Part shown: positions 241-61,659 of the stretch, piece by piece | How the letters are laid out: the number at the start of each line of letters is the position of its first letter | Numbering within the stretch: the first letter of the stretch is position 1 | Source: Sycon ciliatum | Lineage: Eukaryota > Porifera > Calcarea > Leucosolenida > Sycettidae | DNA length: 64,000 nucleotides | Assembly (NCBI RefSeq): GCF_964019385.1 | Contig: NC_088654.1 | Coordinates: 7,805,946 to 7,869,945 of the forward strand | Direction of reading: 5' to 3' | Made by a program: the position numbers and the translations under genes | The notes under the pieces: model-generated | The model's database searches: none | Told to the model about the DNA's origin: nothing | The model's input: only the letters and a program-made list of their open reading frames with translations

Positions 241-14060
<13,820 letters not shown>

Positions 14061-35862: not shown

Positions 35863-36323
35863 TGTAGCAGTGCGCTACGTAATTCTATACAAAAGTCTGG
35901 ATTCGTGAATTTAGAACTAACTTCGAACGATTGAATCTGGTGTCATAACTAATGTTACTTTGTAGATTACAGAGAGGACAGAAACATTACTGTTCGGCTC
36001 ACAACCAGAGAGAGAGAGATAATGGAAGCAAGGCAAAAGGCAAGGAGCGGCGAATTCTGCTCGCCTGCTGAATACGGTGTACGGTACAACTATACCAAAA
36101 GGGAAGGCCAGCGGCGCACTGGAATCTAGTTGTACACAGCTGTAGTACGCATGCAAATAAGGATAATACGGTGCGGAAGTGAACGGCGCATGCTGATACG
36201 GTAAAGCGGTCGTAATACATATATAAGTGTGACCGCGAGACCGGAGAATTTCATGAAGCCAATAATATGAGAATTTCATTGAAACCGAAGTAAATCAGGT
36301 CATGTGACCGAGAATCCGCTACA
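35863..36323 (-). repeat. 3' LTR of the Ty3/gypsy element
   Basis: 461 bp, same sequence as the 5' LTR. It follows a purine-rich stretch (36324-36336, GGCAGGGGAGTAA on the minus strand) that is the likely polypurine tract for plus-strand priming. Open frames inside both LTRs are coincidental duplicates, not a gene. Confidence 0.93.
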
Positions 36324-36508
36324 TTACTCCCCTGCCAGTGTACAAGCCGGAGGCAGGAAACGATAACTTTGGAAAGGAGAGAAACGGCAACCGCAACGTA
36401 GTAGAAGAAGAAGCGTATAAAGGAAGAAGAAAAAATGAAAACCGCACGGCAACCAGAAAAGGTCCGACATAAAGCCCACGGCGACAAAGAACGGAGGAGC
36501 CCAGCCGA

Positions 36509-39500
36509 TCAGGTAGCAAAGCGAACAGCACGTGCAGGGGGTGGGGCAGCAGCAGCAACCGGCGGGACAATCAGAGAAAGAGCAGAAGCAGCAGCAGCTG
36601 TAACAGGCAGAGCATATGCGGGCTTCAAGCGGTCAATGCTTACCTGGTCGGCCTTGCCCTTGACGTCGACCGTGAAATGCTTGTCAGCACGCTTGAGGAC
36701 ACGGAACGGACCAGTGTACGGTGGTTGGAGCGGCTTGCGGACACTGTCGGTACGGATGTACACAAAGTCGCACGTTGACAGATCCTTCGGCACGTATACT
36801 GGGCGGTTGGACTGGCGAGGGCCAACGGCTGAGGGCCGGATGTTTTGCAATACATCCCGGAGGAACTGAACGTAAACGGGCACCGACGGCATAGATGGCG
36901 GTGGCTGGAAGAACTCAGATGGCAAGCGGAGAGTGGTGCCATAGACCAGCTCCGCGGAACTGCACTGGAACTCCTCGCGCAGGCTAGCGCGAATGCCCAG
37001 CAACACCAGGGGCATCATTGCATTCCAGGCACCAGGATGAGGGTGGCACTTCAGAGCAGCCTTTAGGTGGCGGTGGAAACGCTCGACGAGGCCATTGCAT
37101 TGTGGACGGTAGGAAGTTGTCCGAGTCCGGCAGGTGCCGAGCAGGGCCAACAAGTGGCGGAAAAGCGCGGACTCAAACTGGGCGCCACGATCTGTGGTGA
37201 CGACAGATGGGACGCCGAAGCGGGCAATCCACCCAGCGATGAAAGCGGTGGCAACTGTTTCCGCGGCGGCGTCCTTGATCGGAATGGCCTCTGGCCAGCG
37301 GGTAAAGCGATCCACGCAGGTCAGCAGATAGGTGCAACCACCGGAGGGAGGCAAAGGGCCGACCAAATCAATGTGGATGTGGTCAAAGCGCTCATCGGGT
37401 GGCAGAAACTGGCCAAGCGGAGCCTGGGTGTGGCGGGTCACTTTGCTCAGCTGACAGGAGGGGCAGCAGCGGGTCCATTCCCGGACGTCCTTTTGCATGC
37501 CGGGCCAGACGTAGCGTGCCGAAACCATACGCTGAGTGGCACGAATACCCGGATGTGCAAGGGAGTGCAGGCTGTTGAAGACGGTCTTGCGAAAGGACAA
37601 CGGTACAAACGGGCGGGCAGTGCCGGTCGACATGTCGCACACCACAGGCTGGGTAGCGGAACCGTACGGGATTGGCTGAAGCTTCAGAGACGACTGCGTG
37701 TCTTGCTGAGCGGAGAGTAGCTCGGGATCAGACTGCTGGGCGGCTGCCAGAGCCTGAAAGTCGACAGCGGCCGGCGGCGCGGTTACTGCATCAACAGTGG
37801 CGCGAGACAGAGCGTCAGCAACAACATTGTCAGCCCCACGCAGGAAGCGGAGATCCGTCGTGAATTCAGCCACGTAGGACAGGTGCCGGAGCTCACGAGG
37901 TGAGTGGCTAGTACCAGCAGCTTGCATGGCGAACACTAACGGGCGATGGTCCGTGAGAATGTGGAAGCAGCGGCCTTCCAGGTGATGCCGGAAATGCTTT
38001 ACTGCCAGGTACGCAGCTAGCAATTCTCGACCGAACGTGCTGTAGCGACTCTGAGCTGGTTGCATTCGTTTGGAAAAGAAAGCGAGCGGCTGCCATGCCC
38101 CATCAACAAGCTGTTGAAGGGCCCCGCCAACTCCGACATCTGATGCATCCACAACGAGCTGGAGGGGTGCATCCGGGTTGGGGTGGATGAGCAGCGTTGC
38201 TGCAGCAAGCGCGTCCTTGGCAGCATGGAATGCCGTGACAGCGGCAGTGCCAAGTTTCAGGGGACAGTTCTTCGGACGCTGAGGTCCACCAAGCAGATCC
38301 GTCAGTGGTTGGAGGATGTCGGATGCCTGGGGAATAAAGCGCCGGTAAAAGTTGACCATGCCCAGAAACTCGCGAAGCTGGCGGCGAGATGTTGGAAGGG
38401 AGTACTGAGCCACGCCGTCGACTCTTGCCGGTAGCGGGCTGATGCCCTGGGCGTTAACCAGATGGCCCAGAAACGTCAGGGACGGCTGGCCGAAAACGCA
38501 CTTAGCGGGGTTGATCACCAAACCATGCTGCTGCAGGCGCTCAAACACCAGGCGCAGATGTTGCAGGTGCGTAGCGTGGTCGGAGCTGGCGATTAGGAGG
38601 TCATCGAGGTAGACGTAGCAGAAATCCAGGCCATGCAATACTGAATCGATAAACCGCTGGAATGACTGTGCTGCGTTCCGGAGGCCGAAGGGCATCCTGA
38701 TGAACTCAAATAACCCGAACGGAGTCGTGATGGCAGTCTTGGGAATGTCGGCTGGGGTTACTGGTATCTGGTGATACGCTCTGACCAGATCCAGTTTCGA
38801 AAACACTGTAGCACCATGGAGACTGCTGGTGAAATCCTGAATATGAGGAATCGGATACCGATCCGGTTCGGTGACTTTATTCAGGAGTCGGTAGTCTCCA
38901 CATGGCCTCCAGTCTCCATTGGGTTTAGGAACCATGTGGAGAGGGCTGGACCAGGGCGAGGAGGATGGCCGAATGATGCCCAGGGACAGCATATGCTGGA
39001 ACTCAGCTCTGGCCGTTGCCAGGCGGTCTGGAGCCAGCCGACGAGTGCGGGCATGCAGTGCCGGGCCGGTAGTCACAATATGGTGCTCCACCGAGTGCTT
39101 GACCGGCAGGTCATAACAGCATGGTTTGGTGAGGCTTGGGAACTCGGCAAGCAGGCCGGTGAATGCTGGTGCTGTGGCCACCGGGGCGGAAACCAAGGAG
39201 CAGCTGAGCGATGCGGTTTCGGCAGGAATGCAATTGACCTGGAGGTCAGTGGAGTTGTCACGGATGGTGCGTCCATGAAGGTCGACTTGGAGACTGAACC
39301 GATGGAGGAAATCAGCCCCCAGGATCGGCTCCTTCACTTCAGCAACGACAAATATCCAAGGGAATGTTCGTCTAAGACCAAGGTCAAGGGTCAAACACCT
39401 CTGCCCGAAAGCCGGAATAGCAGAGCCATTAGCAGCACGGAGCTGACACTGACCAGTCGGATCGACGTGGCGGCGGTGTTCAGAAGTGGCTGGCAGCAGG

Positions 39501-39637
39501 CTGACGTCAGCACCGGTATCCACTAGGAAACGGGTTCCGCTGGTGACGTCACGGACATAGAGGCGGCGGGAGGTAGGTGGGCCAGACACAGGAGCCGCTA
39601 CTGGCTGGCCGGGGCATTTCCCGACGACCAGGAGCAC
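36509..39637 (-). CDS. pol: Pol polyprotein of the Ty3/gypsy retrotransposon (PR-RT-RNaseH-IN)
   Basis: 1042 residues counted from the first Met (39637), though translation probably enters by frameshift at about 39622, so the Met need not be used. Domains in order: aspartic protease with DTGAD at residues 40-44; reverse transcriptase with YLDD at 343-346; RNase H beginning near VVDASD (about 495-500) with a TDHRPL motif; integrase with the HHCC zinc finger (His691, His695, Cys724, Cys727) and catalytic Asp757, Asp816 and Glu852. A C-terminal extension of about 190 residues ends Pro/Ala-rich. All catalytic residues named are present and there is no internal stop, so the copy may be active. Pol is in the -1 frame relative to gag. 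Confidence 0.93.
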
Positions 39638-40482
39638 GGGGCTTCACACCGCCGGGCTTGCACACCAAACTTGCGGTGAAAATGGCATAAACCACTGCTA
39701 TGCGGTGAAACCGAGCGACTGCGGGGTTGGCTGCGGAAGCGAGAGCGGCCGTGCTGCTGTTTCAGCTCGGTTACAGTGGTCGTCAGGGCGGCAACTTGGT
39801 CCCGGAGAGCTGCAATGGCGGCCATTGCCTCTGACTCGCCAGTGTTGCGAACTGCATGTACTGCCGCACTGGGACCAGCTGCCTCCACTATCCTGTCAGC
39901 CATTTCTGCCAGATCCTGCAGCGACAGTGATGCAGGGCAGGATGCTACTATTGACTTGGCCGATCGGGGCAACCGGCTGACAAACAGCTCGCGCAATAGT
40001 TTTTCAGGCATGGCGTTCTCACCTACCAACTGCTGCAGCTTGCGTAAAAGCTGGGTAGGCTTCTTGTCGCCCAGCTCCTCGTCCGAAATCAGCAGGCGCA
40101 AACGCTGCTGTGCTGACATCTGCGTGCGGTGAATCAGACGCTCGCGGAGGGCGTCGTACGGCTGTTGAGCTGGAGGATCCAGGATGATGTCACGCACCTC
40201 TGCCGCATACTCGGGTGTCAGAGATCCCACCACATACTGATATTTGGTCACCTGGCTGGTGATGCGACGGGTGGAAAACAGGGATTCCACCTGTGCGAAC
40301 CAAACCTGGGGGTCAGCAGCCCAGTAAGGTGGCAGCTTGACGTTCAAGCTGACCGCGGCCACCTCACTGTCGCGGGCTGTACCGCCTGCTGCGGAAGTTC
40401 CAGCGCCCGTGATTCTGGACAGCAGTTGGCCACGACCTACGCTGCGGATAGGTGTGCTAGCTGCGGAGTTTGATGTATTCAT
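39598..40482 (-). CDS. gag: Gag of the Ty3/gypsy retrotransposon
   Basis: 294 residues. The body (residues about 45-210) reads as a retrotransposon capsid: [20 protein letters not shown], then helical segments with [19 protein letters not shown] and [10 protein letters not shown]. Residues about 215-240 are a short coiled-coil-like stretch ([19 protein letters not shown]), followed by an Arg/Ser-rich basic region suited to nucleic acid binding. The tail carries CHFHRKFG...RRC...PC, the C/H motif typical of one Ty3/gypsy Gag group in place of a CCHC knuckle. Gag packages the element RNA into particles. The frame stops at 39598, a few codons after a slippery heptamer leading into pol. Confidence 0.9.
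39616..39622 (-). promoter_or_regulatory. -1 ribosomal frameshift heptamer at the gag-pol overlap
   Basis: On the minus strand the sequence is GGGAAAT, read in the gag frame as (..G) GGA AAT. This fits the X-XXY-YYZ slippery pattern. A one-base slip back gives GGG AAA and continues in the pol frame. It lies about 15 bases before the gag stop. A downstream stimulatory structure was not modelled. Confidence 0.75.
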
Positions 40483-40560
40483 ACTGTACCAGTGCTCGTA
40501 AAATACTAAAATTCAATGCTGCGTGCAGACCACTGAGCGATCGCGAGTGATCGAACACTA

Positions 40561-40573
40561 GACGGGGTCACCA
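40561..40573 (-). other. Putative tRNA primer-binding site
   Basis: Two bases inside the 5' LTR, on the minus strand, the sequence TGGTGACCCCGTC begins. It starts with TGG, the complement of a tRNA CCA end, at the position expected of a retrotransposon PBS. The priming tRNA was not identified. Confidence 0.7.
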
Positions 40574-40575
40574 AT

Positions 40576-41036
40576 TGTAGCAGTGCGCTACGTAATTCTA
40601 TACAAAAGTCTGGATTCGTGAATTTAGAACTAACTTCGAACGATTGAATCTGGTGTCATAACTAATGTTACTTTGTAGATTACAGAGAGGACAGAAACAT
40701 TACTGTTCGGCTCACAACCAGAGAGAGAGAGATAATGGAAGCAAGGCAAAAGGCAAGGAGCGGCGAATTCTGCTCGCCTGCTGAATACGGTGTACGGTAC
40801 AACTATACCAAAAGGGAAGGCCAGCGGCGCACTGGAATCTAGTTGTACACAGCTGTAGTACGCATGCAAATAAGGATAATACGGTGCGGAAGTGAACGGC
40901 GCATGCTGATACGGTAAAGCGGTCGTAATACATATATAAGTGTGACCGCGAGACCGGAGAATTTCATGAAGCCAATAATATGAGAATTTCATTGAAACCG
41001 AAGTAAATCAGGTCATGTGACCGAGAATCCGCTACA
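40576..41036 (-). repeat. 5' LTR of the Ty3/gypsy element
   Basis: The 461-bp repeat upstream of gag in the element's reading direction. It has TG...CA ends and a TATATA sequence (about 40931-40936) that could serve as its TATA box. By eye it is identical to the 3' LTR. Confidence 0.93.
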
Positions 41037-41502
41037 AAAGGTCAAACAGGCTAGTAAGTTGTACCCTGCAGGCACGGTGACCAGGTGACTGGTGTACGCA
41101 GGAGCACGTGACCGCTTGTTCAACCATGTTCGATTGGGAATAAAGGAGGAACGCCGCATCGCAGCCTTTTCGGACCAAAACCAGTCGACTCAGCGTCCAA
41201 AAGACTACAACATATGGGCCAATCGCGGTCATCCGTGCTTTTATAAGAACGAAATGGCGCTTTTAGTGACATTTTGCATACAAATCCCCATCTCGTAGGG
41301 CGCAGTCACCCAGTTTCGGTGGAAGTGCGCGAGTTCGATTGGGATTCAAGTAGGAAGGGAGCGTCTCAGCTTCCTCGGACCACGACCATTCGACTCAGCA
41401 CCCCGAAGACTACAACTGGTGAAATTTTAATTTTTGCCTTAACTTCCCCTTTAACCCAGACGACACTCAGCATTCTGTACTCTGTAGACTGTAGAGTGTA
41501 GA

Positions 41503-43729: not shown

Positions 43730-45080
43730 TTTTCTTTTTCTTTCGCGAAACCGGGAAAACCCCAAATCGCAGCCATGTCGCACCCCACGCAACTGCCGCA
43801 ACTGGGCCATCGCAGGCCATCGCAGAAGTTGAGCTTGGCTCAACTTTTGCGATGAATCCCGCTTAAAGGGGAAGTATACCCTAAAATCAAATTTTCACCA
43901 GTTGTAGTCTTCGGGGTGCTGAGTCGATTGGTCTTGGTCCGAGGAAGCTGAGACGCTCCCTTCCTACTTGAATCCCAATCGAACTCGCGCACTTCCACCG
44001 AAACTGGGTGACTGCGCCCTACTAGATGGGGATTTGTATGCAAAATGTCACTAAAAGCGCCATTTCGTTCTTATAAAAGCACGGATGACCGCGATTGGCC
44101 CATATGTTGTACTCTTTTGGACGCTGAGTCGACTGGTTTTGGTCCGAAAAGGCTGCGATGCAGCGTTCCTCCTTTATTCCCAATCGAACATGGTTGAACA
44201 AGTGGTCACGTGCTCCTGCGTACACCAGTCACCTGGTCACCGTGCCTGCAGGGTACAACTTACTAGCCTGTTTGACCTTTTTTGGGTGCAGTCCTGTCAC
44301 TCGAGTTGAACCTTGGTGTGAAAGTTGTCGCCTGCTGGCGCGGTGACCAGGTGATTTGGGCAACCAGGACCACGTGACCGCTTCTTCAACCATGTTCGAT
44401 TGGGAATAAAGGAGGAACGCTGCATCGCAGCCTTTTCGGACCAAAACCAGTCGACTCAGCGTCCAAAAGAGTACAACATATGGGCCAATCGCGGTCATCC
44501 GTGCTTTTATAAGAACGAAATGGCGCTTTTAGTGACATTTTGCATACAAATCCCCATCTAGTAGGGCGCAGTCACCCAGTTTCGGTGGAAGTGCGCGAGT
44601 TCGATTGGGATTCAAGTAGGAAGGGAGCGTCGCAGCTTCCTCGGACCAAGACCATTCGACTCGGCACCCCGAAGACTACAACTGGTGAAAATTTGATTTT
44701 AGGGTATACTTCCCCTTTAAAGCGGGATTCACTGAAGCTTTTTTGCGATGCGACACGCGATGCGACGTGATCTGCGACGGATGCGTGCGATGCGAACTCG
44801 CGAAATACCATTCACAGAAGAAGTCAGCGATGCGACAACATCTTGCTGATTTGGCTACGTCACCATGATATTCGCGCGGTTTGATACAACTTGTACACAT
44901 TTATAGGCAACTCTTGAACCTTTGTACAACTTTGCTGTAGAAAAGGTCAAATCGTACGCCAAATGATAATCGCTTGTCGCATCGCATCGCATCGCAACAA
45001 TGCAAAAGTTGCGTGGGGTGCGACATGGCTGCAATTTGGGGTTTTCCCGGTTTCGCGCCTGTCGCATCGCGTGTCGCATC
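43730..45080. repeat. Outer fold-back repeat surrounding TTAA-element copy 2
   Basis: The sequences 43742-43800 and about 45010-45062 are inverted copies (both include GAAACCGGGAAAACCCC and a GTCGCACCCCACGCAAC block). Near the centre the flanks also pair: GAATCCCGC on the left and GCGGGATTC on the right of the TTAA element. The right arm has many GCGATGCGA-type short repeats. It looks like an older palindromic element that received the TTAA element at its centre. Confidence 0.6.
43867..44716. mobile_element. Palindromic TTAA-target element, copy 2, uninterrupted
   Basis: 850 bp made of two inverted arms of about 415 bp meeting near 44280, with the same AGGGGAAGT ends and TTAA on both sides (43863-43866 and 44717-44720). 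It is the uninterrupted relative of the copy at 35.4-41.45 kb and shows the empty site of the LTR element at 44272-44290. Confidence 0.88.
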
Positions 45081-45841
45081 TTCTACAAAACTGTCTGAAA
45101 AACTCAGAGCAGGAACTACTACTTGTAATACTTCCACTCCACAGTCTCCAGTTCCACTTCCACTCTTGGTATATTTTACATGTCCCAAAATTGATCCCGC
45201 GTCTGGCCTACAGGACATACATTATTAAATCAGTTGGAGATGCTTGGGACGAGAAAAGAAGTACATCTCTGCGATCTGTGGAGTCGGACTCGGAGATGAT
45301 CGATGTGCAGCCAAGAGTACATAAAATAATGAACCTCTTGATGCAGCTAGCTGGTGCGTGACAGTCGTGACTGCCTGGCGTGATTCTCGACATGGCAACA
45401 CCGGCCGTAGATCTACCGTGGAGTCTACGAGTACGAACACGAACAGCATGCAGTATCTACGGGGTATGGATACGGGACCCCGCCAAACGGTTATGGAGGG
45501 ATGGTGAGGCGCGAAAACGCCCATATTGGCCCTTTGAGTGTGAGCTCATGTACCATATCGTGCACGAAAGGCACGGTTTTGTCATGATCAGACTGATGAT
45601 ACGGAGTGTTGCAAAACTTGCACAAGGCAACACGAGTAGTACAAATGTGCTCGCACAGCTGCGGTCACATTCGCGTTACATGCTGGAGGCGCGAGGGATT
45701 TGAATCGGACCACCAGTATTGCCATACTGGGTCAGACAAAACGCGCAACCTTGGCATGTCCAGGTTCACTTTTGCTTTGTACTTGTAGTCGACTTGACGT
45801 GTGCAGGAGAAAGAATTTGCAGGTCCTGTAGAACCACAGTG
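45081..45841. other. Upstream region of the NPC2-like gene
   Basis: Unique-looking sequence between the fold-back repeat and the NPC2 start. A stretch at 45225-45361 (SVGDAWDEKRSTSLRSVESD in one frame) could be an exon but has no supporting partner. A splice acceptor candidate stands at about 45807. Confidence 0.4.
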
Positions 45842-46351
45842 ATGAGGTCTGTGGCGTTTGCTCTCTTCCTTGCTGGCCTGTCCCAGGCGTGGGCGGCAAC
45901 GAGCTTGGACATCAAATTCAAGCCTTGCCCCAGCTCTGCAACTATTCACTCGGTGAATGTCGACCCGTGTGTTCAGTTTCCTTGCCCACTCAAGCCCAAC
46001 ACCTTCTACAATGTCACCATCAACGTCACGGTCGGTGAAGATGTCACTTCTGGCGACGTGTCGCTGTCCGCCGTTTTCCACGGTGTTCGCCTGCCGTATC
46101 CCGGCTTCAGTCAGATTCATATGTGCAAGGAATTGTCTGGCGCTGAGTGTCCGTTGAAAAAAGGACAGACGGTTATCTACAAATCGGTGATGTCCATCCC
46201 CAAGAACACGCCGCTTATAATTCTACCTAAGGAGATTCCCTTCAGATGGTCGGTGAAGGACAAGTCAGACAACGAAATTCTCTGCTTCGACTCGCTCATC
46301 GGCGTGGATAAGAGTGGCGTAGAGATCAGAAGGCCCATCATTGCAGTGTAG
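45842..46351 (+). CDS. NPC2: NPC2-like secreted sterol-binding protein (ML domain)
   Basis: 169 residues in one exon. The start is the ATG at 45842, chosen because it begins a clear signal peptide (MRSVAFALFLAGLSQAWA) cleaved near residue 18. The mature part has the six ML/NPC2 cysteines in the right order: KPCP, DPC and FPC four residues later, MCK and AEC, and ILCFD. NPC2-type phrases also match: NVTINVTVGEDV, VFHGVRLPYPG, the lysine-rich KKGQTVIYKSVMSIPKNTP and the RWSVKDKSDNEILCF strand. NPC2 binds cholesterol in lysosomes and hands it to NPC1; in invertebrates ML proteins also bind other lipids. A possible 3' splice site at about 45807-45808 suggests an intron in the 5' UTR. Upstream in-frame codons lack a signal sequence and are probably not used. 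A (TC)n tract lies about 800 bases downstream. Confidence 0.88.
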   Translation: MRSVAFALFLAGLSQAWAATSLDIKFKPCPSSATIHSVNVDPCVQFPCPLKPNTFYNVTINVTVGEDVTSGDVSLSAVFHGVRLPYPGFSQIHMCKELSGAECPLKKGQTVIYKSVMSIPKNTPLIILPKEIPFRWSVKDKSDNEILCFDSLIGVDKSGVEIRRPIIAV

Positions 46352-48022
<1,671 letters not shown>

Positions 48023-48627
48023 AATTTGATAACCGCAATCAGTAATACAAGCTGGATCGACATTTGTGTACACTGTATTCATGTATTGTAAAACTGTGGA
48101 GACAATGTGCAATAAAACGATGAAAATGTAAAGAAATTGTGTAGAGAAAGAAAGGGATTCAAACAAGTTTTCGTACAACACTCTTCAGGAATCTTCGTTG
48201 TACTAAAGGACACTGAAAACAAAATTGAACTATTATAGAAAATCTAAGTTAGAGAAATAACACTAAGAACAGCAGTGAAATTTACAAGTGTGAATTTTGC
48301 AAGTTTAGTGTTAGTACACACATTCGTTATTGCTCTCGCTTTCATTGTTAAAATTCACACTTGTAAATTTCACTGCTGTTGTTCTTAGTGTTATTTCTCT
48401 AACTTAGATTTTCTATAATAGATCAATTTTGTTTTCAGTGTCCTTTAGTACAACGAAGATTCCTGATGAGTGTTGTACGAAAACTTGTTTGAATCCCTTT
48501 CTTTCTCTACACAATTTCTTCACATTTTCATCGTTTTATTGCACATTGTCTCCACAGTTTTACAATACATGAATACAGTGTACACAAATGTCGATCCAGC
48601 TTGTATTACTGATTGCGGTTATCAAAT
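48023..48627. repeat. Large fold-back repeat, arms about 278 bp
   Basis: The arms 48023-48299 and 48349-48627 are near-exact inverted copies around a 49-base spacer; only scattered differences are visible, such as an inserted base near 48383. No coding capacity or clear target duplication was found. An AT-rich 3'-UTR-like flank precedes it. Confidence 0.88.
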
Positions 48628-49795
48628 TATTATTATTATTATTTTTTTAATAAGTACGAGGTGATTTGGCTTTTTTAACATGTTTGTAAAATGACGTTTT
48701 TTCAGCCACTTCTAGGCAAGCTACGTCCAAATAAATTGTTGCAAGTGGAAGTGCTATCCTTCATGCTTGTTGTCTAAAAAAATGGGAATGATCCCACTTT
48801 GGAAAGTGTCTTGAATCATGTCCTACTTTCATAGTATTCTCAGGGTTCAAATAATTGGTGTGTCATTTTTTAACAAATTTGTAAAATGGCATCACAAACT
48901 GGGATATTCGGTCATCAATGTTCTGAAGTTGATAGATATCACTTCAAGGAATGCCAGTGGATGAAAATTAATCTGTCAACTGCATTGTATGCTGCCGCAA
49001 AACCGTGTTTTTATATTTGTAACTAGTGGCTGTGTCATACGGTAGAATTGGGTAGATAGCATAGCATCGAAGCCATGTTTTCGTTCTCACAGAGTGTATT
49101 CCGTGACCTACTGTTCTTCATTGTTGTCTTTAGTGATGGGAGGATGGCCTGACGTCGTCCAAAGGCTCTGCGGAAGCAATTCACTGCCCTCCTTGTCCAT
49201 TCAGGGGCTTATTTTACACATTTTACACAAAACAGCGAAGCACCCACCACTAGGTATACCGACGTGGCAGGGAGAATTAAATTATATGCACCAAATTTTC
49301 TGGTCAATGTTGATCTACCATAAACTGGCTCTCATTTGCCACCACCCATGTTTCGATACAGCCATCCGGAGCAGAAAAACAGCCAGAAGAAAAGCAAATT
49401 TTACAGATTTGTTAAAAAAAGCCAAATCACTTCGTACACAACCTACTCGTCAGAAGGAGAGAAGGCAACAGAGTATACAATAACAAAACAGCAGGGAGAG
49501 TAGGGGCTGCGAAGCAAGCCCGAGCTGGTGAGAGAGAGAGAGAGAGCGAGAGCTNNNNNNNNNNNNNNNNNNNNNNNNNNNNNNNNNNNNNNNNNNNNNN
49601 NNNNNNNNNNNNNNNNNNNNNNNNNNNNNNNNNNNNNNNNNNNNNNNNNNNNNNNNNNNNNNNNNNNNNNNNNNNNNNNNNNNNNNNNNNNNNNNNNNNN
49701 NNNNNNNNNNNNNNNNNNNNNNNNNNNNNNNNNNNNNNNNNNNNNNNNNNNNNNAGGAGAGAGAGGAGAGAGAGAGAGGGGAGCTGAGAGTGGAG

Positions 49796-50232: not shown

Positions 50233-51290
50233 TTAACATGCCACTTTGTTCCCCATGCATGTAAAGCATTGACGGAAGCTTGGAGTGTCAGCTTGGTGTA
50301 TGGCATCGTCGCGTGTATTGAAGCAGGCATACAGCGTGGTGTCGTCTGCAAATGTTCCCATTTCAGACCCTGGACCCAGGCAGCTATCAGCATCATTTAC
50401 ATATACTAGGAACAGGGACGGTCCAAGGATGCTGCCTTGTGGCACTCCTGCAGAGATCGGATAGCGATCAGAGCTCTTGTCGCCAATGACCACTTCCAGT
50501 GAAAGACCTGTTAAGTAGTCTCTAAGCCAGTCCAGGAGGGCGCCCTTCACACCGATGTTCCGCAAATTGTGCAGTACACCTGTGTGGGAGACTTTGTCAA
50601 AAGCCCCGGCGGTGTCGACAGAAGGACCTTTGAAGGACCTTTTGTACACTCACTGGAATTACTCGGGCAACCTTCAATGCCTGTGGTTGGTGGCCAGTAC
50701 TGAAAGACAGAAAGAAGAGGCGTGCTAGGGACCCCGCAAGCTCAGTTGCGCATTCCTTGAGTACCCTAGCTGGGATATTGTCCGGTCCTGTGGCTTTGGA
50801 GGAATCCAGTATTGCCAGATGTCGTCGTACTGTGTCAGCCCGGAAATGGATCCTTGTGACTGCTGGAGTTTCACTGTTGTCAGAGGCAGCCGGCAGGCTG
50901 TCCACTGATATGTCGGACGCAAGACTGCATTTCTTGGAAAAGAAAGAGCCAAAGCAGTTTGCCTTTGCCAGGTTGGTTGCGCATTCTTGCCCATGTGCAT
51001 CAATCAGGGTTGGGATATCAGAGGAGCACTTCAGAGGCTCAGAAGATGGAAATCTCCTCCAGCGCCGCCAGGCCTGTTCCTTGAGAACTACTGCATCCAG
51101 ACACTCTGGGTTCCACCATGGAGGGTCAGAGGGTGTTGTAGTGTATTGCTTGCACCAGATAAATTGGTGCATCCCCACTAGAATTGTCTCTGAGATGACA
51201 TCCCAGACCTTGTTGCAGTCGGTATGGGAGCAGTGACTGACAGCCAATCTACAGATCGGAAGTAAAAGTGAGCGTGTGTGGGCAGGCATG
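50233..51290 (-). pseudogene. Truncated non-LTR (LINE) reverse transcriptase fragment
   Basis: The minus strand encodes, in two frames with a break at about 50630, the linker after the endonuclease (PPWWNPECLDAVVLKEQAWRRWRR), SSKATGPDNIPARVLKECA, AGAFDKVSHTGVLHNL, GVPQGSILGPSLFLVYVND and GTFADDTTLY. These are CR1/Jockey-type reverse-transcriptase motifs. The endonuclease N-terminus and the region after FADD are missing or decayed, so the copy is dead. Confidence 0.85.
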
Positions 51291-51783
51291 CGTTTACTGC
51301 CATATTGCCGGGTGTGTCGTTACCACCATATTTATCGACTACACGTACTGTCATGATTACGTACGGGCCATGCATGCATGCATGCATGCCTGGGTTGCTA
51401 CAATGACGTAGTCTACTATAATTATGCATTATATGCTCATAGCTCGTGCAGGATCCCATTCAGATGGTTCACGTCAGACGTCAGACTTCTTTTTTTTGGT
51501 TCCGAGAGCTAGAAATTTTAGTTTGTGCGCCGAGCTAGCTAGCTAGTAGACCCGAGAAGATAACACAGGAGAGGACTTGTAGAGTTGTGGAGAAAGGCTG
51601 GTCGCTGTGAGACGTGTGGAGTATAAGCAACGTATCTGACCATACCGTAAAAGCCCGTGTATAGGCCCGGGGCGTATAGAATAGCAGCCTCGATTTCCTG
51701 GTAGGCTCCGGCGGATTATGCTCGTGAAATCATGGAATTGTGTTTCCTGGATTCTCGCACTATTTTCGCAAAATCGTCATATA

Positions 51784-52729
51784 CAGTCGTCCCTCTCTAA
51801 TCCGGCACCTTTTGCTACGGCGTTTTCTGCTGGATTAACGAGGGTGCTGGATTAAGAAATCCTGCCCTCTGACCCGGCCCTACCCAATTGCATGCATGTG
51901 TCATACGTCAAAACGCAGGGTTTTTCCGTGTCGATCCAAGTATTTGATGCACAACTTTATATTCTCAACTGTTCTCCAGGAATATACACAGTGATAAAGT
52001 GATAAAGTAAAACAGAGAACATGTTCACATGTACTCTTGCACACACACGCACACACACACACAGACCTGAAAATTGGCAGGACACTACTCCTTGCTAAAA
52101 TAAGAAAGTATGGTTGACTGCTTAGCAGTTGTCTCCTGGACAACATTGACCCTCTTGAGAAGGCCACGCAAGCAGTCGACATCATGCAGGTCGAACGACG
52201 GATGTCCTTCGAAGCAAACAATTGCATCAGCAAGTGCGCGGGATGCTTGTGCCAGAGTTGGAAGGCTGTTGGAGTGCGCATCCAAGATGTGCCAGAGCTG
52301 TTAGCCAGTTAGTTGTAGAACGTCAGTACCGTCGGTCAGTGTCGTGCATCGTCGCTGATTGTTTTGTAACTGGTGGTGTTAGTGGACAGTATAGCGTAAC
52401 TTGTAGTTCCTTGGTCTTTCTGAGTGTATAAATTGAGTTCGGGTTCGGAAAAGTCCTGAGAACCAACCGAACTGAACTCTCCCGCGCGAGGTCGAGTACA
52501 GTTGTCAACTGAATTCGATCGATAACTGAACGCGATTTACGACTGCCGGATTATGAAATCAAACTACGTGCAGTTTGAGCGATTCGTTTCAAAAAGTCAC
52601 TGCCGGAGGCGGAATTCAAGTGCCGGATTACGATGTAGGAATTGAACGAAAAAAATCGGTTTCATCAGAAAGTGCGCCGGTTGGCAAGGGTTCCGGATTA
52701 ACAAGTGCCGGATTAGAGAGGGACGACTG
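51784..52729 (-). mobile_element. Internally deleted pogo/Tigger-like DNA transposon
   Basis: 946 bp with ends CAGTCGTCCCTCTCTAATCC and its complement, and a TA duplication (51782-51783 and 52730-52731). On the minus strand, 52085-52285 encodes a C-terminal tail like that of CENP-B/Tigger transposases (FEGHPSFDLHDVDCLRGLL, then TTAKQSTILSYF). The DDE core is absent, so it cannot move itself. Confidence 0.82.
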
Positions 52730-53408
52730 TAATGCTTTGGCACGCGGGGATACACATTCACTTTGTTGTACTTATGGAGCCTCAAAGTTTGGAAATTTGT
52801 GCGTTTTTCGTACATGTACTTGCAAGTGGCCATAAGTACAACAAGATACATGAGTATCCCCATACCAAGGTGTCCATGCGCGCATGCTAGAGATCAACAA
52901 AGAAAAGAGAAAACATTGCATCTTCTATTCACTAGTTGACTTCTTTTGTAAAAAGATTTTTCATTGCTAAATTTTGTTTGAGTTACAAGTACCTTTCAAA
53001 ATTATCATGTTCAACTGACTGTTTTCGTAATCGTCACACTCGTCCAACCGATGTCAACCTCACCCTGCGAATAATCAGCTCATCTCTCTCGTAGCTCCAC
53101 CTCTCCTTCCATCATTATCGAACATCAACAATACCTCACTGGATATCAAGTTTTTAATTATTAGAGCACTATCCATAGCCTGCACAGCCACGGCTGCTAA
53201 AATACCGAGGTCACGACTTCGTATCATGAATATTGAATAATGTACATGTACGCAGAGTACGTTTGCGGACTACCCGTCACTATCTCGTCCACCTCGGGAA
53301 CCCTGAAGCGCTTTTCACTGAAAACACTATCTGCATGACCTCCAAACCCTTTACCAAGCAGATCACTAGCACTGGTCAGGTGCATTGCACACAATTCTGT
53401 AGCCTACA

Positions 53409-53604
53409 CAGGGGCGTGCTCGGCCCCCCAACTAGGGGGGTGCACGGGAGCCGAGGGGAGCCCCCCCCGGCAATTTTCTGCAATTTGTTTGCAACCTTTC
53501 TTGAATTTTAGAGCATATTTGCATACATTACAATTGCAATTACCCAGATTGAAAATTTTGGGGGGTGCACGTGCCCCCCGTGCCCATCGCCGAGCACGCG
53601 CCTG
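53409..53604. mobile_element. CAGGGGCG inverted-repeat element with 5-bp target duplication
   Basis: 196 bp, starting CAGGGGCGTGCTCGGC and ending GCCGAGCACGCGCCTG, flanked by CTACA (53404-53408 and 53605-53609). It lies inside the 2.3-kb TA element. The CAGGG ends resemble hAT elements, and a 5-bp duplication would fit the hAT5 group. Confidence 0.75.
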
Positions 53605-54162
53605 CTACATACTAGAACTGTGGTACAATCATGCTGGTTATGCTCCTACCTCCGAAAGGATGCCAAATTATGCTCCAAATTTTCAACCACGCAATTATGC
53701 CAATAATTATGCCGGCATAATCCGCCGGTGCCTATTTCCTGGGCGTATACAAAGGCACGGGCGTTATTTTGGAACGGGACATATACTTGGAATATGGATA
53801 GCAGTAAGTATTTCATAATTGGGTATCAGTACCGGTACATGTACTGGTGTTTCCGGCATACCTGGGCGTGTACATGGGCATGGGCGCTATTTCGAAACAA
53901 AAGTGTTGACTTCCCCTGACTGGGCCTGTACACGGAGGGTGGGCGTATACAGGGGCTTTTACGGTAGCTGCTAGCAATGGCTAGTGCGATGGATGATGAT
54001 TTCCACTTCAAGGATCCCGAGAACAATGCTAGTTTTGTGGATGTAGTCCAGAAAACCGTGATAAAAGTGAGACGCTGTGGATGGAGACGCTGAAGCAGAC
54101 GCGGCAGAGCCTGGAAACGGTGCCGAAATAGAGACGAGCGACATGTCCCTTGTGAACATGCT

Positions 54163-54324
54163 CAGGGGCGTAGGAGGGCTTTTGAAAGGGGTACGACCAA
54201 AGGTCGGCGCGGCCAAAGGCAGTGTTAGAGGGGGGTGCGGGGATTGCATGTTCCGGACGGACCACACTTTTCGAAAAGTGGTACGGCCATGGTCGTACCA
54301 GTCGTAGCGGGTGCTACGCCCCTG
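54163..54324. mobile_element. CAGGGGCG inverted-repeat element inside gene copy A
   Basis: 162 bp with ends CAGGGGCGTAG and CTACGCCCCTG, flanked by ATGCT (54158-54162 and 54325-54329). Sister copy C (about 56755) has the site with one ATGCT and no insert. It contains the sequence GGTACGGCCATGG, shared with the element at 17514-17796. Confidence 0.82.
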
Positions 54325-54728
54325 ATGCTAATCGCAGTTGTGGGGGATCTAATCCGCGACCATCGCCAGCAACTGGAGGAGGCTGTGGCCGCACTCATGA
54401 ACTATCGCGTCGACGAGCTGAAAGACACATCGAGAAAATCCGGAATAGGTTCAAAGGAACTAACTTTCGTTGGTACCACCTGATCTGTTTCTTAGCCTTC
54501 TGTGCTCTGCTCATATTTCGCAAGTCGGGCGCCGGCGCTGACGTGTTGCAGTTAGCGAGGACTGTGGCTGTATATGTGTACGAGTGGATTGTGACAGAGT
54601 GGAAGAAGGGGTTCATCAACCTAGGCGGATGGGTAAGTGATATACTGTCAGCTGTTGCAATTGTTTTGTTTCTAGACTGTGGCGGCGCTGGTGCTGGTGC
54701 CATTGAATGTTGTTACGCTGCTTGCGTG

Positions 54729-54830
54729 CGTGTGTGTGTGTGTGTTTGTGTTTGTGGTGTGCGTGAGTGTGTGTATATAATTATATGTATGTGTGTGTGT
54801 GTTGTCTGGTGTGTGTGTGTGTATGTGCCC
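54729..54830. repeat. (GT)n tract in gene copy A
   Basis: A GT-rich tract between the core exon and the C-terminal piece. The matching position in copy D has a longer CA tract (57727-57990); copies B and C lack it. Confidence 0.9.
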
Positions 54831-55199
54831 GCAGACGCCCGCACAGGCGCGAGCGTGAACGAACGACTCACAATAAGGTTTTGAGGGGGGGGGGGGGGTA
54901 GTTTATGCGCCTTGTGTCTCTCGCAGCCAAAAAACTGCTTATCACATGCGAGTAGTCGGAAGGGCTGCTGTCGCTGAATTTGTGGACGTTTCAACCGTTG
55001 CAACTTGCAATGAAGCACAGCTTCGACTGGGATGGTTGCCGACAAGAAATTTGCAAGCAGCCAAAAGCAGGTTTGCACCACTGACCTCCTGGTCACCTAT
55101 GGGAGCACGTGTATCATGTTCCTTTTATTTTTAATTTTTTAATTTTTTAACTCCGGCTGTGGATACACGCGCGAAACATAGATAAAAAAACCGGTGTGG

Positions 55200-55735
55200 G
55201 CCTAACATCTCAAGATGCATACCCGGTATTCAGAAAACTGCTGCAAACCGTGGGTTCTGCAAACCCTGGGCAGGAAAATCTTCAATTCGGCCACAGAGTA
55301 ATGGTACTGGGTTTGCTCTGCACCTTCCATAGGTGACCATGATGTCAGTGGTGCAAACCTGCTTTTGGCTGCTTGCAAATTTCCTGTCGGCAACCATCCC
55401 AGTCGAAGCTGAAATGTCCACAAATTGAGCGACCGCCGCCGCCACAGTCTAGAAACAAAACATTTGCAACAGCTGGCAGTATTTCACTTACCCGTCCGCC
55501 TAGGTTGATGAACGCCTTCTTCCACTCTGTCGCAATCCACTCGTACACACATACAGCCGCAGTCCTGGCTAACTGCAACACGTCAGCGCCGGCGCCCGAC
55601 TTGCGAAATATGAGCAGAGCACAGAAGGCTAAGAAAGAGATGAGGTGGTACCTTGTGTTATCTTCTCGGGTCTACTAGCTGGCTAGCTCGGCGCACAAAC
55701 TAAAATTTCTAGCTCTCGGAACTTTATTGCATTCC
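55200..55735 (-). pseudogene. Copy B of the hydrophobic-helix gene family, internally deleted
   Basis: On the minus strand the leader (GCGCCGAGCTAGC, GACCCGAGAAGATAACACA, about 55735-55655) runs straight into the middle of the conserved exon at the WYHLIS codons. The start and linker are therefore missing. The rest (FLAFCALLIFRKSG, VYEWIATEWKKAFINLGG) and the following C-terminal piece are present, then the sequence runs to about 55200. It is inverted relative to copies A and C. Confidence 0.65.
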
Positions 55736-56589
55736 CAACTCATCACAACCTAGCGCTCTCACCGTGTTTTTGTGTGTGTAGACATGGCATTTTGCAGTTC
55801 ACGCGCTAGATCGGCACTCGTACCCCAAACCCAAAATACCGTCGGTTTGGTACCGTTTCGACGATAGAAAGCTCTTTTTAGCGGGAGAACGAAACGGTAA
55901 GATTCCAACTAGGGTTACCTTATAATTACACGTCTATCGTTGCGTCAGGAGTCAGGACTCAGAAGCCGAACTGCTAACCGTGTCTCGAAAACACATCAAA
56001 AACAGTAGACTCGCCCTCTACGCGCCGACCGTCGAAAATAGCGTGAACGGTAAAATGCTAACCATGGCTACAGTTGTAGTAATGATGCCACTGAGTGGAA
56101 AGTACATGACTTGTATGTTGTTTACTATGATGATGTGCGGACAGGTCGGTGTGAATCCTGAACGGCAACCGAGCATGTCGCGTCGGGGGATCTCGGCGGT
56201 GAGTCTCGCCTCGCCTGCACACAATCATCATCATAGTAAACAACACAATCATCTGATCATGTACATACATGTACTTTCCAGTGGCATCAGTATTCCGCGT
56301 AAGATTTTCGTCGCCTGTGTGGTGTGTTCCTCCACCAATGTGCGCGTGTTATAAATATTTATCGCTGTTCTCACACTTTACCTTTTAGCACCTAATCCTT
56401 GCATATGCCATTGTTATGTGTGGAAAACGCGCACTTGCGCCATTTCTGGTGTATAAGAATGATCATTCCTCCGTTATCATCATTATCATCCTCTACTGGT
56501 GAGCTCCGACAGGGAGCGAAACAGCTGTCCAGAGGCGTGGAACAATATTATCTCTCAACGGAAGTGTCCTTGCAGGTATCTGTTTGGTT

Positions 56590-57272
56590 CAGCTGGGAGC
56601 GCGTAGTTGTGATGAGTTGGGAATGCAATAAAGTTCCGAGAGCTAGAACTTTTAGTTTGTGCGCCGAGCTAGCTGTGTAATGGAGACGAAGCAGACGCGG
56701 CAGAGCCTGGAAACGGTGCCGAAACAGAGACGAGCGACACTTACCTTGTGAACATGCTAATCGCAGTGTGGGTCTAATCCGCGACCATCGCGAGCAACTG
56801 GAGGAGGCTGTGGCCGCACTCATGAACTATCGGGTCGACGAGCTGAAAGACACAATCAGGAGAATCTGGAATAGGTTCAAAGGAACTAACTTTCGTTGGT
56901 ACCACCTCATATCGTTCTTAGCCTTCTGTGCACTGCTCATATTTCGCAATTCGGGCGCCGGCGCTGACGTGTTGCAGTTAGCCAGGACTGTGGCTGTATG
57001 TGTGTACGAGTGGATTGTGACAGAGTGGAAGAAGGCGTTCATCAACCTAGGCGGATGGGTAAGTGATCTACTGCCAGCTGTCGCAATTGTTTTGTTTCTA
57101 GACTGTGGCGGCGGCGGCGGTCGCTCAATTTGTGGACATTTCAACCGTTGCAACTTGCAATGAAGCACAGCTTCGACTGGGATGGTTTCCGACAGGAAAT
57201 TTGCAAGCAGCCAAAAGCAGGTTTGCACCACTGACATCGTGGTCACCTATGGGAGGTGCAGAGCGCGTGTAA
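56590..57272 (+). pseudogene. Copy C of the hydrophobic-helix gene family, best-preserved core exon
   Basis: The leader (56605-56675) jumps by deletion to the acidic linker at about 56680, so the start is lost. The core exon 56774-57058 is 285 bases with no stop: RDHREQLEEAVAALMNYRVDELK, then WYHLISFLAFCALLIF and VYEWIVTEWKKAFINLGGW. A GTAAGT donor and a TTTCTAG acceptor 43 bases later join in phase to 57102-57272, a further 56 codons (AVAQFVDISTVATCNEAQLRL, GNLQAAKSRF) and a TAA. If this exon pair is used, the protein is a small one with one strong hydrophobic helix and amphipathic helices. The function is unknown. Confidence 0.6.
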
Positions 57273-57469
57273 CATGTTCTGTTTTTTTTATTTTTTATTT
57301 TTTTAACTCCGGCTGTGGATACACGCACGCAAACATAGATAAAAAAACGATGTGGCCTAACACCTCAAGATGCATATTCAGAAAACTGCTACAAACCCTG
57401 GGCAGGAAAATCTTCATTTCGGCCACAGAGTCATTGTACTGGGTTTGCTCTGCGCCTTCCATAGGTGAC

Positions 57470-57852
57470 AATGAGGTAAGTGGTGCAAACCTGCTTTTGG
57501 CTGCTTGCAAATTTCCTGTTGGCAACCATCCCAGTCGAAGCTGTGCTTCATTGCAAGTTGCAACGGTTGAAACGTCCACAAATTCAGCGACCACAGCCCT
57601 TGCGATGTGATAAGCAGTTTTTGGCTGCGAGAGACACAAGGCGCTAATTACCGCCCCCCCCCGCCCCCCCCCCCCCCCTCAAAAACTTATTGTGAGTCGA
57701 GCTCGCGCCTGTGCGGGCGTCTGCGGGCACACACACACATACACCACACACAGCACACACAGCACACATACCACACACAGCACACACAGCACACACAGCA
57801 CACACACGCATACCACACGCATACCACACACAGCACACACACACACACACAG

Positions 57853-57883
<31 letters not shown>

Positions 57884-58850
57884 ACACACACACACACACA
57901 CACACCACTAACACACATAATTATATTATATACACACACGCACTCACGCACACCACACACACACATTTATGCACACACACACATGTGCGCACGCACGCAA
58001 GCAGCGTAACAACATTCAACGCCACCACCAGCGCCGCCACAGTGTAGAAACAAAACAATTGTACACACATACAGCCGCAATCCTGGCTAACTGCAACACG
58101 TCAGCGCCGGCGCCCGACTTGCGAAATATGAGCAGTGCACAGAAGGCTACGAACGATATGAGGTAGTACCAACGAAAGTTAGTTTTGAACCTATTCCAGA
58201 TTCTCCTGATTGTGTCTCTCAGCTCGTCGACCCGATAGTTCATGAGTGCGGCCACAGCCTCCTCCAGTTGCTGGCGATGGTCGCGGATTAGACCCCCCAG
58301 AACTGTGATTACCATGTTTCACAAGGAAGGTGTCGCTCGTCTCTGTTTCGGCACCGTTTCCACGCTCTGCCGCGTCTGCTTCCGGCATCTCCATCCACAG
58401 CGTCTTGTCCATCGCCACTACCACCAGCAGCAGCAGCACTTTCAGCACGTCCACCACCAATTTGACCTCCGGCGACTGGCTGCCTCGCAATCTCCTCCAC
58501 CGAGTCGAAGAGTCTTTTCGTGATCACTTAAAAGTGTCTTTTATCAAGGATTTCTGGACTACATCCACAAAGCTAGCATTGTTCTCGGGATCCTTGAAGT
58601 TGAAATTATAACCCATCGCACTAGCCATTTCTAGCAGCTATGGTCAGATACGTTGCTTCTACTCCACACGTCTTCCAGCGACCAGCCTTTCTCCACAACT
58701 CTACAAGTCTTCTCCTGTGTTATCTTCTCGGGTCTACTAGCTAGCTAGCTCGGCACACAAACTAAAATTTCTAGCTCTCGGAACCAAAAAAAAGAAGTCT
58801 GACGAGAGACGTGAACCATGTGAATGGGATCCTGCACGAGCTATGCCCAT
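57470..58850 (-). pseudogene. Copy D of the hydrophobic-helix gene family
   Basis: It has the most complete 5' part. The leader (58850-58630) is uninterrupted, then ATG at about 58625 (MASAMGYNFNFKDPENNASF, then VDVVQKSLIKDTFK), where a frame break occurs near 58527. The next frame reads KRLFDSVEEIARQPVAGG with an Ala/Gly linker. The acidic linker and core exon follow, with a 3-base loss and then a deletion after VCVYN (about 58062) that removes the second helix and the donor. A GT/CA-rich segment and the C-terminal piece lie at 57640-57470. The copy shows the empty sites of both the 2.3-kb element and, in part, the 162-bp element of copy A. Confidence 0.62.
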
Positions 58851-58854
58851 ATGT

Positions 58855-61010
58855 CATTGGGTACAAGTATTACACAGCAATGAATCAAACAAGTCTCCTT
58901 CCGCTGTTACTCCGAATTTCGTGTCAAAACACGAAACTGGAGTAACAGCGAAAAGAGACTTGTTTGATTCATTGCTGTGTAATATTTGTATTACTGGCTC
59001 TGTCCACTGGACATTCACTGTAAGCAGCCTAGGGACTTTAGACAACTGTGTATACCATTGGGTATATATAACCTCGGCTTCGCCTCGGCTTGTGTATGTA
59101 TAATTATATGGGCCGCGATCAGCTAAAACATGTCTTTGGGGTTTCGTAAAAAAGTTGGGAAATGACGAAATGAAAAAAAATGTTTTTTTGGAGCGCGTTT
59201 ACTCTGCACTTCATTCAAATGATTCATCATGTGGCGATCATCTTCTCAAATTTTGTTCAAACACTTGTTTGGCTTTCTACTTCAAGTAGCTGGCGAGCAA
59301 AGACTGACAATGTCCGCATCTAGTGATACTAGAGCAGCTCGCAGGGCCAGACGATCGCTGTGCATGGCCCAGGTTTGTTCAGGTGTCTGCAAGTCCGTGG
59401 CGGCGGGTCTGCAGAGCGACGGTGACAATTTGTTGGGATCTCATTGATGTTGATGTCGACGGCGAAGCTGAATCGTCCCCGTCGTCTCCAGTAGCAAAGA
59501 GGCACAAGTTGTGGGCTAGTACATAATCATTTAGGCAGCGAACCGGCTGCCTTACGACGTTACTTGCGTTCAGCTCTCATGAGGCGTCTGACGCAGTCTC
59601 GGAAACGCAGGCGACGATCGAAAGTGTCACTGGCAGAATCGAAAGAGTATGCAAGAGCAACGCCGCCCAGCGCATCGTGTTGCTTTCCAGGAAGAACTTG
59701 GGCCATGCCTTTGAACTGATGTCGTTGACATGCTCAAGTCGGTGTCAACATCTATAGTTCCGTTGTATTGTGCTCCGCCACAAAAGCCACTAAGTAATAG
59801 TTTGTCTCTTTGTGTCAGACTGTGCGAAAACTGTAATTTTCTATTTCAAAGTACATATTTTGAGAGCGGTGTTCGGGGCACTTGTAGACTACTTTTCTGC
59901 CCTGTATCACCTTCAGGAGGTCAAGTAAGGTCCCAAGAACTGTTTTCTGGAAGAAAACAAAATTTGAAAGTTATCACCCTCTAAGACATGTTTTAGCTGG
60001 TTGTGGCCCATATTATAACAAGGGACCAAGTGTATATCGAGAAATATACACCAGTATAACAACCGAGGCGAAGCCGAGGTTTTTATAACTGGTCGATATT
60101 TCTCGATATACACGAGGTCCCTTGTTATAATAAATTTATACCTCTCCATGCGCAAGCTGAAGAGCAAAAAGGAGTGAATATAGCTTTCTTTCCCTAAAAA
60201 GGAGTGAATATAGCTTTAGAAAAAGAAAGCTATATTCACTCCTTTTTAGAGAAAGAAAGCTATATTCGAAACTTGGATGTTGAAACCATAAACCTTTGGG
60301 ACTGTAGCTTTTGCTCGTTTTCGTTGCGCTTGCCTTCCCCTCTTTGGTCTTTCCATAACCTTGAACCTTCCAAGTATCCATATGTCCTTTTCCTTTCTAC
60401 ATAAAGCTATATTTTCTCCTTTTTAGAGAAAGAAAGCTTCCCAGTGGGTTTGTTTTAATGGTTTTCCTCAGTGGTGTATATACCTCCTTAGTGGTGTATA
60501 TTGAACAGTGTATATGGAAATTTATACCTCACTCCATATACAATTACAATCTTAGGCATGTTCTCCCTTAGTGGTGTATATATCTCCATATATACCGCTA
60601 AGGGAAATTGGCAGTAGTTGTCAGCGAGGAACAAGTCATTAGGAGGTCACACACGGTGAATATGGAGAGGTATAAATATATTACAACAAAGGAACCTCGT
60701 GTATATCGAGATATATACACCAGTTATAAAAACCTCGGCTTCGCCTCGGTTTTCATACTGGTGTATATATCTCTATATACCCGGGAGGCGACACGAGGCC
60801 TTCCGGGCCGACTATGATTGACTCGCGGCACTTTCTCCCACTTTTCCCTCAGATATCCTCGGTGCGCGCCCCGAGTTATAAACCAACTACTCCGCATACT
60901 TATGCCATGGGAGTGTGCACTCCTTGGGGAACAGACTCGTGCAGGATCGTGGGAAATTGTAGCTCGAAAAGAAAAGAAGAATGAACTACTTTTCCAAGTT
61001 ACATTTGATC
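58855..61010. repeat. Repeat-rich region with palindromes
   Basis: 58862-58993 is a palindrome (ACACAGCAATGAATCAAACAAG and complement). CCTCGGCTTCGCCTCGG or its complement occurs at about 59072, 60064 and 60732, near sequences like GTATATCGAGA. 60165-60260 has repeated AAGGAGTGAATATAGCTTT in both orientations. No gene was recognised before 61011. Confidence 0.7.
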
Positions 61011-61659
61011 ATGATGGTCGTAGAGAGTGCTGCTGATCGCGATCCAGATCCGGGTCAAGAATCACCTCCTGATCCTAAGGAAACTTCAGCTGACGTAGAT
61101 CTACGTTCTCTTCGTGCGAACGCTCAGTCTGTGTTGGCTTGGGCCACAGGTATGGTTTGAATCCTAATTTTCTATGTTATTATGTTTTTGAATTTGTCTT
61201 GAAGCTTTCAACCTGTTACTTAGCGGCTTCTGATCTGGTGCGCGTACTGCATAAAAAGTTGCGAATAATCATGAATTGGAAGAAATACTTGTGGGTTGAG
61301 AGTACAGTACTTGTTCAATGGTTTCTACAGAGCGTTCCGAATCCCAGCCGCTAAGGACCCACAGAAGGCAAGAAGCCTGCGTTGCAAAGCTGCTGTCCCG
61401 CCTGACTGCGGAGAAAGAGGACTCGTTTATGGTTGTTCTACAGCCGCTGCTGGCGTCCATCAGCTCTGTCCTGCTCCCAGCAGCAGATAGGCCTGGATTT
61501 CAACGAGTCGTGTCCCAACTCCGGTGTGAACGATTTCCCGACGTCAAGACGAAGTGGGGTCAAGTCATGGGTGTTGCAAGGAAGCTGTCACAAGATGATC
61601 CAGTATTAAAGGGTAGGTTTTGTAAAGCTGCTCTAACATTTGGATACTATAAATTATAA
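61011..61659 (+). CDS. Possible two-exon gene, unrecognised
   Basis: Exon 1, 61011-61149, starts with two Met codons and is acidic and Pro-rich (ESAADRDPDPGQESPPDPKE), then SLRANAQSVLAWAT. A GTATGG donor and a TTTCTACAG acceptor join in phase to exon 2 from 61331, which encodes ACVAKLLSRLTAEKEDSFMV, ISSVLLPAADRPGF and FPDVKTKWGQVMGVARKL. The frame continues to a stop ending at 61659, or splices out near 61612 (GG|GTAGGT). Composition and splice signals look gene-like, but I know no matching family. It could also be part of a mobile element, since repeats flank it closely. Confidence 0.4.

Follow-up and report, generated by a model that had tools for sequence, protein, structure and literature searches.

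What is the sequence that stands four times over, in alternating orientation, in a block of about 7 kb in the genome of the calcareous sponge Sycon ciliatum? The block occupies positions 51431-58852 of a 64,000-nucleotide (nt) stretch of contig NC_088654.1 (assembly GCF_964019385.1, positions 7,805,946 to 7,869,945 of the forward strand), which we call the window and from whose first letter all coordinates are counted. An earlier note, made from the letters alone, had read the block as four damaged copies of a gene of no recognisable family and had put it forward as a candidate for an undescribed system. Our analysis replaces that candidate with a decayed cluster of a named, testable family: the block is very probably a set of four pseudogene copies of a divergent Bcl-2-like first coding exon, made by fold-back inverted duplication and since decayed. 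The block itself is a real but ordinary object, and the interest lies in the divergent family and in the 58-residue ends that some of its members share.

Four alternating inverted copies

Self-comparison revealed one sequence present four times in the block, with orientations alternating as A(+), B(-), C(+) and D(-). The ungapped inverted arm pairs are 51431-51644 / 58639-58852 (95% over 214 nt), 54472-54692 / 55432-55652 (94% over 221 nt) and 55433-55652 / 56898-57117 (95% over 220 nt), and gapped inverted arms reach 393 nt at 81%. Across 100 first-order shuffles of 51000-59800, inverted matches reached 52 nt at most (mean 18), so the inverted structure is not due to chance, and the earlier description of four alternating inverted copies is borne out. 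Within the core exon, copy A matches B in reverse (94.9% over 216 nt) and C directly (93.7% over 364 nt), and C matches D in reverse (92.6% over 336 nt); pairwise core identity is lowest for A-D (87.6%, 121 nt) and highest for A-B and B-C (94.9%, 216 nt). Among the parts said to be shared by all copies, the leader and the core exon are indeed common to them, whereas the start (MASAM...FKDPENNASF) is found at 53977 in A and at 58628 in D and is absent from B and C, and the acidic linker was seen in A, C and D.

The 200-base assembly gap at 49555-49754, about 1.7 kb to the left of the block, raises the possibility of collapsed or stacked haplotypes, which the earlier note had allowed for. However, inverted copies with a core divergence of 5-12% and with differing lesions and insertions are not what two stacked haplotypes would be expected to give. 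In addition, the 104-amino-acid (aa) protein relative P0001 is 95% identical to copy C and identical to none of A-D, though it may be an allele in another assembly. We therefore consider an assembly artefact extremely unlikely.

A Bcl-2-like exon and its relatives

A search of 5.8 billion proteins with copy C, which needed shared 5-residue words, found three relatives: P0001, P0002 (LOC135812239; 257 aa; 86% to the copy C open reading frame (ORF), 60% of the query) and P0003 (LOC135827820; 261 aa; 84%, 60% of the query), the last two being uncharacterized Sycon ciliatum proteins. P0002 as query added P0004 (61%) and P0005 (57%), whose scpid/scgid identifiers we take to mark Sycon models. With a four-relative profile, no further relative was found at E values up to 10 among the 7999 candidates scored, which were those sharing most words. 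These results support the suggestion that the copies form a birth-and-death cluster of a lineage-specific family. P0002 and P0003 resemble the copies in the common start, the acidic loop, the core exon and the GGW end; unlike the broken copies, they are open throughout and have a further C-terminal segment, the last part of which is a long predicted helix.

The Pfam Bcl-2 profile (PF00452) matched copy C with an E value of 8.4e-4 and 20.3 bits, below its gathering score of 31.4, and matched the relatives P0002 (7.3e-6), P0003 (1.1e-4), P0004 (0.079) and P0001 (0.091), all likewise below that score. P0005 had no PF00452 match, and the copy A ORF had no Pfam match at 0.1. P0002 also carries a precomputed PF00452.25 label. 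The TIGR00865 bcl-2 profile matched P0003 (E 1.9e-4) and P0002 (E 5.7e-3), both far under the cut-off, and left P0004 and P0005 unmatched. Sequence matches in the PDB, each of them weak, were to the Bcl-2 family in 10 of 12 cases for P0003 and in 45 of 47 for the family profile. In two fold comparisons, Bcl-2 proteins made up 46 of 50 and 47 of 50 among the fold matches listed, the underlying P0002 model being poor.

The end of the exon provides an independent argument for Bcl-2 identity. The BH2 motif GGW is invariant in copy C and in P0001-P0005 and is present in A; it reads GGR in B and is deleted in D. A putative GT splice donor lies directly 3' of GGATGG in A and C and of GGACGG in B, and in the relatives a V or L followed by a new segment, the one that ends in the predicted helix, comes directly after GGW. 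An exon boundary at GGW is reported to be conserved in Bcl-2 genes and is stated for Amphimedon in PMC8998228, and an exon that ends at GGW with such a donor would follow the same pattern. The BH3 motif (hydrophobic-x3-GD) appears as IAVVGD in P0002, P0003 and A, ends in GG in D and in GN and GK in P0004 and P0005, and is interrupted in C. As judged from sequence, the core exon very probably derives from Bcl-2 and has diverged widely. The intact relatives would be helical-bundle, tail-anchored proteins at an intracellular membrane, probably mitochondrial, acting in cell-death control; the C-terminal end of P0002 is predicted, with low confidence, to form a long helix (214-250) that is partly hydrophobic by eye.

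The span from BH3 to BH2 can be aligned with Bcl-w, Bax, Mcl-1 and Bcl-2-like 10 of the Bcl-2 family (PF00452), which share the exon end at the BH2 GGW and dominate the fold matches; the sponge family differs from them in its BH1 motif (RWYH or RWFH) and its weak scores. Amphimedon and Geodia are demosponges. The genes of Amphimedon queenslandica and of Geodia cydonium (BHP1, BHP2) treated in PMC8998228 are likewise sponge multi-motif Bcl-2 genes, but these sequences were not recovered as relatives in our word-based protein searches.

Several results weigh against this assignment. All profile scores are sub-threshold, the PDB sequence search gave no useful match with copy C alone or with query A1, a structure model of the core alone was uninformative, and the usual BH1 sequence NWGR is missing. 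NWGR is a hallmark of Bcl-2 proteins, though not a universal one. Its place is taken by RWYH in P0002, P0003, A and C, by RWYY in D and by RWFH in P0004 and P0005, with B retaining only the YH end; ordinary BH3-groove binding may thus be altered, and we do not claim that the groove functions in the usual way. Together with the poor models, these results would fit a sponge-specific helical membrane protein that resembles Bcl-2 by chance. However, two profile libraries and the sequence matches to solved structures converge on one family, most fold matches are Bcl-2 proteins, and GGW closes the exon, as it does in Bcl-2 genes, which makes a chance resemblance very unlikely. The profile, PDB, fold and exon-boundary evidence also contradicts the earlier view that the exon belongs to no known family.

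When read against the intact relative P0002, each copy is damaged in its own way, as had been noted. Copy A has an internal deletion after VVQK, one stop and a frameshift after KDT, in addition to three insertions, one of them nested. The nested element is putatively Tigger/pogo-like. Copy B has lost the entire stretch between the leader and YHLISF, and of its core only the end remains. In copy C the N-terminus is gone and a frameshift separates the linker from LIRDH, the core itself being open. Copy D has a stop and frame changes after SLIK and within the linker, and retains the core to VCVY; its deletion takes out BH2, GGW and the donor. Synonymous and non-synonymous differences (A-B 2/6, A-C 4/5, B-C 3/4) are too few for a selection test. 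In all likelihood, copies A-D yield no functional protein of their own.

Origin of the inverted array

The tail arms place the A/B symmetry axis near 55214 and the C/D axis near 57355, both beyond the exon and its repeats on the 3' side; the core arms of these pairs are centred 150-180 nt off the tail axes because of insertions and deletions. The B/C axis lies at 56177.5. Short inverted arms centred at 56180.5-56188, within 3-11 nt of this axis, comprise a perfect pair (56116-56135 / 56226-56245) and a pair at 83% (56080-56108 / 56268-56292). The middle flanks of the B/C spacer, compared as decayed arms, had no similarity (their local score of 15 lies below the mean of 17.7 for shuffles).

The segment that the earlier note had called a C-terminal piece is the inner arm of palindromes A/B and C/D. 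The best tblastn matches of the last-exon segments to the whole window had E values of 0.27 (P0002) and 0.033 (P0003), and within the block the best were 0.51 and 20; thus, no convincing last exon was found in the 64 kb, and the segment is not the protein C-terminus. The P0003 match (22 residues, 36%) falls at 61181-61246(+), outside the block and about 2.3 kb to its right, and is probably due to chance. The ORF 57295-57678(-) in this segment had no Pfam match at 0.1. Two other ORFs gave matches that we took as chance, 57164-57610(+) to DNMK (E 0.012) and 57614-58009(+) to PRIMA1 (0.095).

We propose a hairpin-primed mechanism in which an inverted repeat 3' of the exon would fold back, so that the upstream exon is copied in inverted orientation. 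Such a step would yield the A/B and C/D axes and leave out the last exon, and a fold-back downstream of the exon fits the absence of the last exon from all four copies. B and C would be joined at an axis of another kind, which lies near 56180 and to the 5' side. Recombination between arms could then blur the order of the copies, with deletions, frameshifts and transposon insertions arriving later. Fold-back inverted duplication is set out as a mechanism in PMC7999016, and PMC3907307 is listed as a further paper on the subject; such cases likewise have inverted copies, whose axis coincides with short inverted repeats or lies close to them. The cases in PMC7999016 are cancer amplifications via dicentric chromosomes, whereas the sponge array is 7 kb long and decayed, and its mechanism is one that we infer.

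Both B and C are without the intron repeats and carry 39 nt outside the leader, whereas A and D have the outer leader and the repeats, suggesting an inverted duplication of A-B. The A/B and C/D spacers agree at 89.3% in direct orientation (206 positions) and at 51.2% reversed (121 positions). With the spacers in the same orientation, an inverted duplication of A-B would need a later flip between the arms, and this counts against the fold-back history as we reconstruct it. Site patterns among the copies are few and mixed.

The copies could instead be independent head-to-head and tail-to-tail duplicates of a normal gene that arose by unequal exchange, without any fold-back, and were truncated later. 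Birth-and-death of gene families is common, and this family has several members, both of which would suit such a history. However, a recognisable last exon is found in no copy and both tail-to-tail axes lie in the same segment, so that one truncating fold-back is the simpler explanation. We hold unequal exchange to be unlikely.

The block could also be a mobile element of fold-back type. Such a unit, bounded by long terminal inverted repeats, would have taken up a Bcl-2-like exon and would move either whole or as A-B. The outer arms of the block (214 nt at 95%), the palindromic units A/B and C/D with similar spacers, and further long palindromes in the window (43853-44731 and 48020-48631) are what such an element might show. 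Yet its outer ends, which are defined solely by the extent of the arms, have no visible target duplication, the best word touching them being the 5-mer ATATG inside the inverted arms. The A and D leaders terminate differently from those of B and C, the D leader is directly continuous with its ATG region like a normal 5' flank, and all 12 ORFs that overlap the block and reach at least 120 aa are without a transposase-type Pfam match. We conclude that a mobile element is quite unlikely; the earlier proposal that the copies are cargo of a mobile unit finds no support here. A viral source was also rejected, as 51 pattern matches on viral contigs with query A2 included none confirmed by tblastn. 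Rfam gave no match at gathering score across the window.

Shared ends, feature positions and neighbourhood

P0002, P0004 and P0005 agree in all 58 of their C-terminal residues, a stretch that begins one residue past GGW. Their heads match at 108 of 188 aligned positions (P0002-P0004), 95 of 171 (P0002-P0005) and 145 of 173 (P0004-P0005). At the level of the predicted proteins, identical ends on differing heads suggest that the last exon is common to these genes or has been converted, or that the transcript models are chimeric. It is conceivable, although we give the idea little credence, that duplicated first exons of the Bcl-2-like kind are retained by the sponge as a reserve, from which intact genes are supplied through recombination or whose members are joined to one membrane-anchor exon in common. 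In that case the identical ends and differing heads would reflect an anchor module and a head module that evolve separately, and broken inverted copies like these would serve as donors or arise as by-products.

For the question of how cell death evolved in early animals, the divergent Bcl-2-like family of this calcareous sponge offers a modest but useful lead, its points of interest being the unusual BH1 motif and the heads and anchors that look shuffled. We did not find the family described in the papers on Sycon ciliatum and Bcl-2 that we searched, nor named in the titles and abstract openings of further papers listed; the main text of PMC8998228 names Sycon once, as a BLAST-searched source, and its supplements may list sequences. 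The positions of the features are given in Table 1.

Table 1. Features of the inverted block, in order of position in the window.
Feature	Position	Strand	Remarks
Copy A leader (5' region)	51431..51644	+	94.9% to 58639-58852 reversed, 214 nt
Copy A insertion 1, in the leader/ATG interval; inverted-end element (CCGTAAAAGCCC...)	51645..53964		TA duplicated; uninterrupted junction in D
Element 2, nested inside insertion 1	51784..52729		TA duplicated; perfect 27-nt inverted match 51782-51808 / 52705-52731, TA included
Copy A exon start, MASAMDDDFHFKDPENNASFVDVVQK...	53977..54067	+	
Copy A linker insertion; short inverted-end element (CAGGGGCGTAG...CTACGCCCCTG)	54163..54324		5-bp ATGCT duplicated; uninterrupted site in C
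Copy A core exon, BH3-BH1-BH2 region	54325..54632	+	Internal frameshift; putative GT donor at 54633, right after GGW
Copy A tail, inner palindrome arm	54956..55105	+	Past the intron repeats; 94% to 57456-57605 reversed, 150 nt
Spacer at A/B symmetry axis	55106..55323		Orientation as in the C/D spacer
Copy B tail, inner palindrome arm	55324..55411	-	
Copy B core fragment, YHLISF...INLGGR	55492..55650	-	Putative donor GT retained; Arg in place of the BH2 Trp
Copy B leader fragment (55654-55722) and 39 nt	55654..55761	-	The 39 nt common to C, not A or D
B-C spacer	55762..56593		56080-56135 and 56226-56292 contain short inverted arms, centred close to the B/C axis
Copy C leader fragment and 39 nt	56594..56674	+	The 39 nt common to B
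Copy C linker and core exon	56679..57058	+	Core 56774-57058 open, 86% to P0002; putative GT donor at 57059 after GGW
Copy C tail, inner palindrome arm	57113..57264	+	92% to 57447-57598 reversed, 152 nt
Spacer at C/D symmetry axis	57265..57446		
Copy D tail, inner palindrome arm	57447..57598	-	
Copy D core exon	58062..58318	-	Lower coordinate approximate; BH2, GGW and donor lost by deletion
Copy D N-terminal coding part	58390..58628	-	Two frames (MASAMGYNFNFKDPENNASF... and KRLFDSVEEIARQPVAGGQ...)
Copy D leader	58639..58852	-	

Outside the block, the palindromes at 43853-44731 and 48020-48631 have 92-93% identity across 886 and 616 aligned positions, respectively, and the first has arms in common with 35405-35862 and 41036-41457. 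Their presence besides the block indicates a neighbourhood prone to palindromes. A hairpin-like palindrome of 129 nt at 89% (58862-58990) adjoins the block on the right, and an inverted pair at 12112-12705 / 28389-28917 (96.7% over 392 and 150 nt) includes a 146-nt palindrome at 12493-12638.

Just to the left of the block, 50233-50649(-) holds a reverse transcriptase fragment (RVT_1, E 6.7e-15). A Ty3/gypsy-like long terminal repeat (LTR) retrotransposon at 35860-41036 looks young, with direct ends of 464 nt at 99.8% identity; its ORFs are a pol at 36509-39643(-) with reverse transcriptase, RNase H and integrase, and 39598-40512(-) with DUF7041. An open stretch of 662 aa at 30732-32720(-) had no Pfam match at 0.001. 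The ORF 45704-46351(+) contains an ML domain (PF02221, E 9.5e-18) and is presumably NPC2-like.

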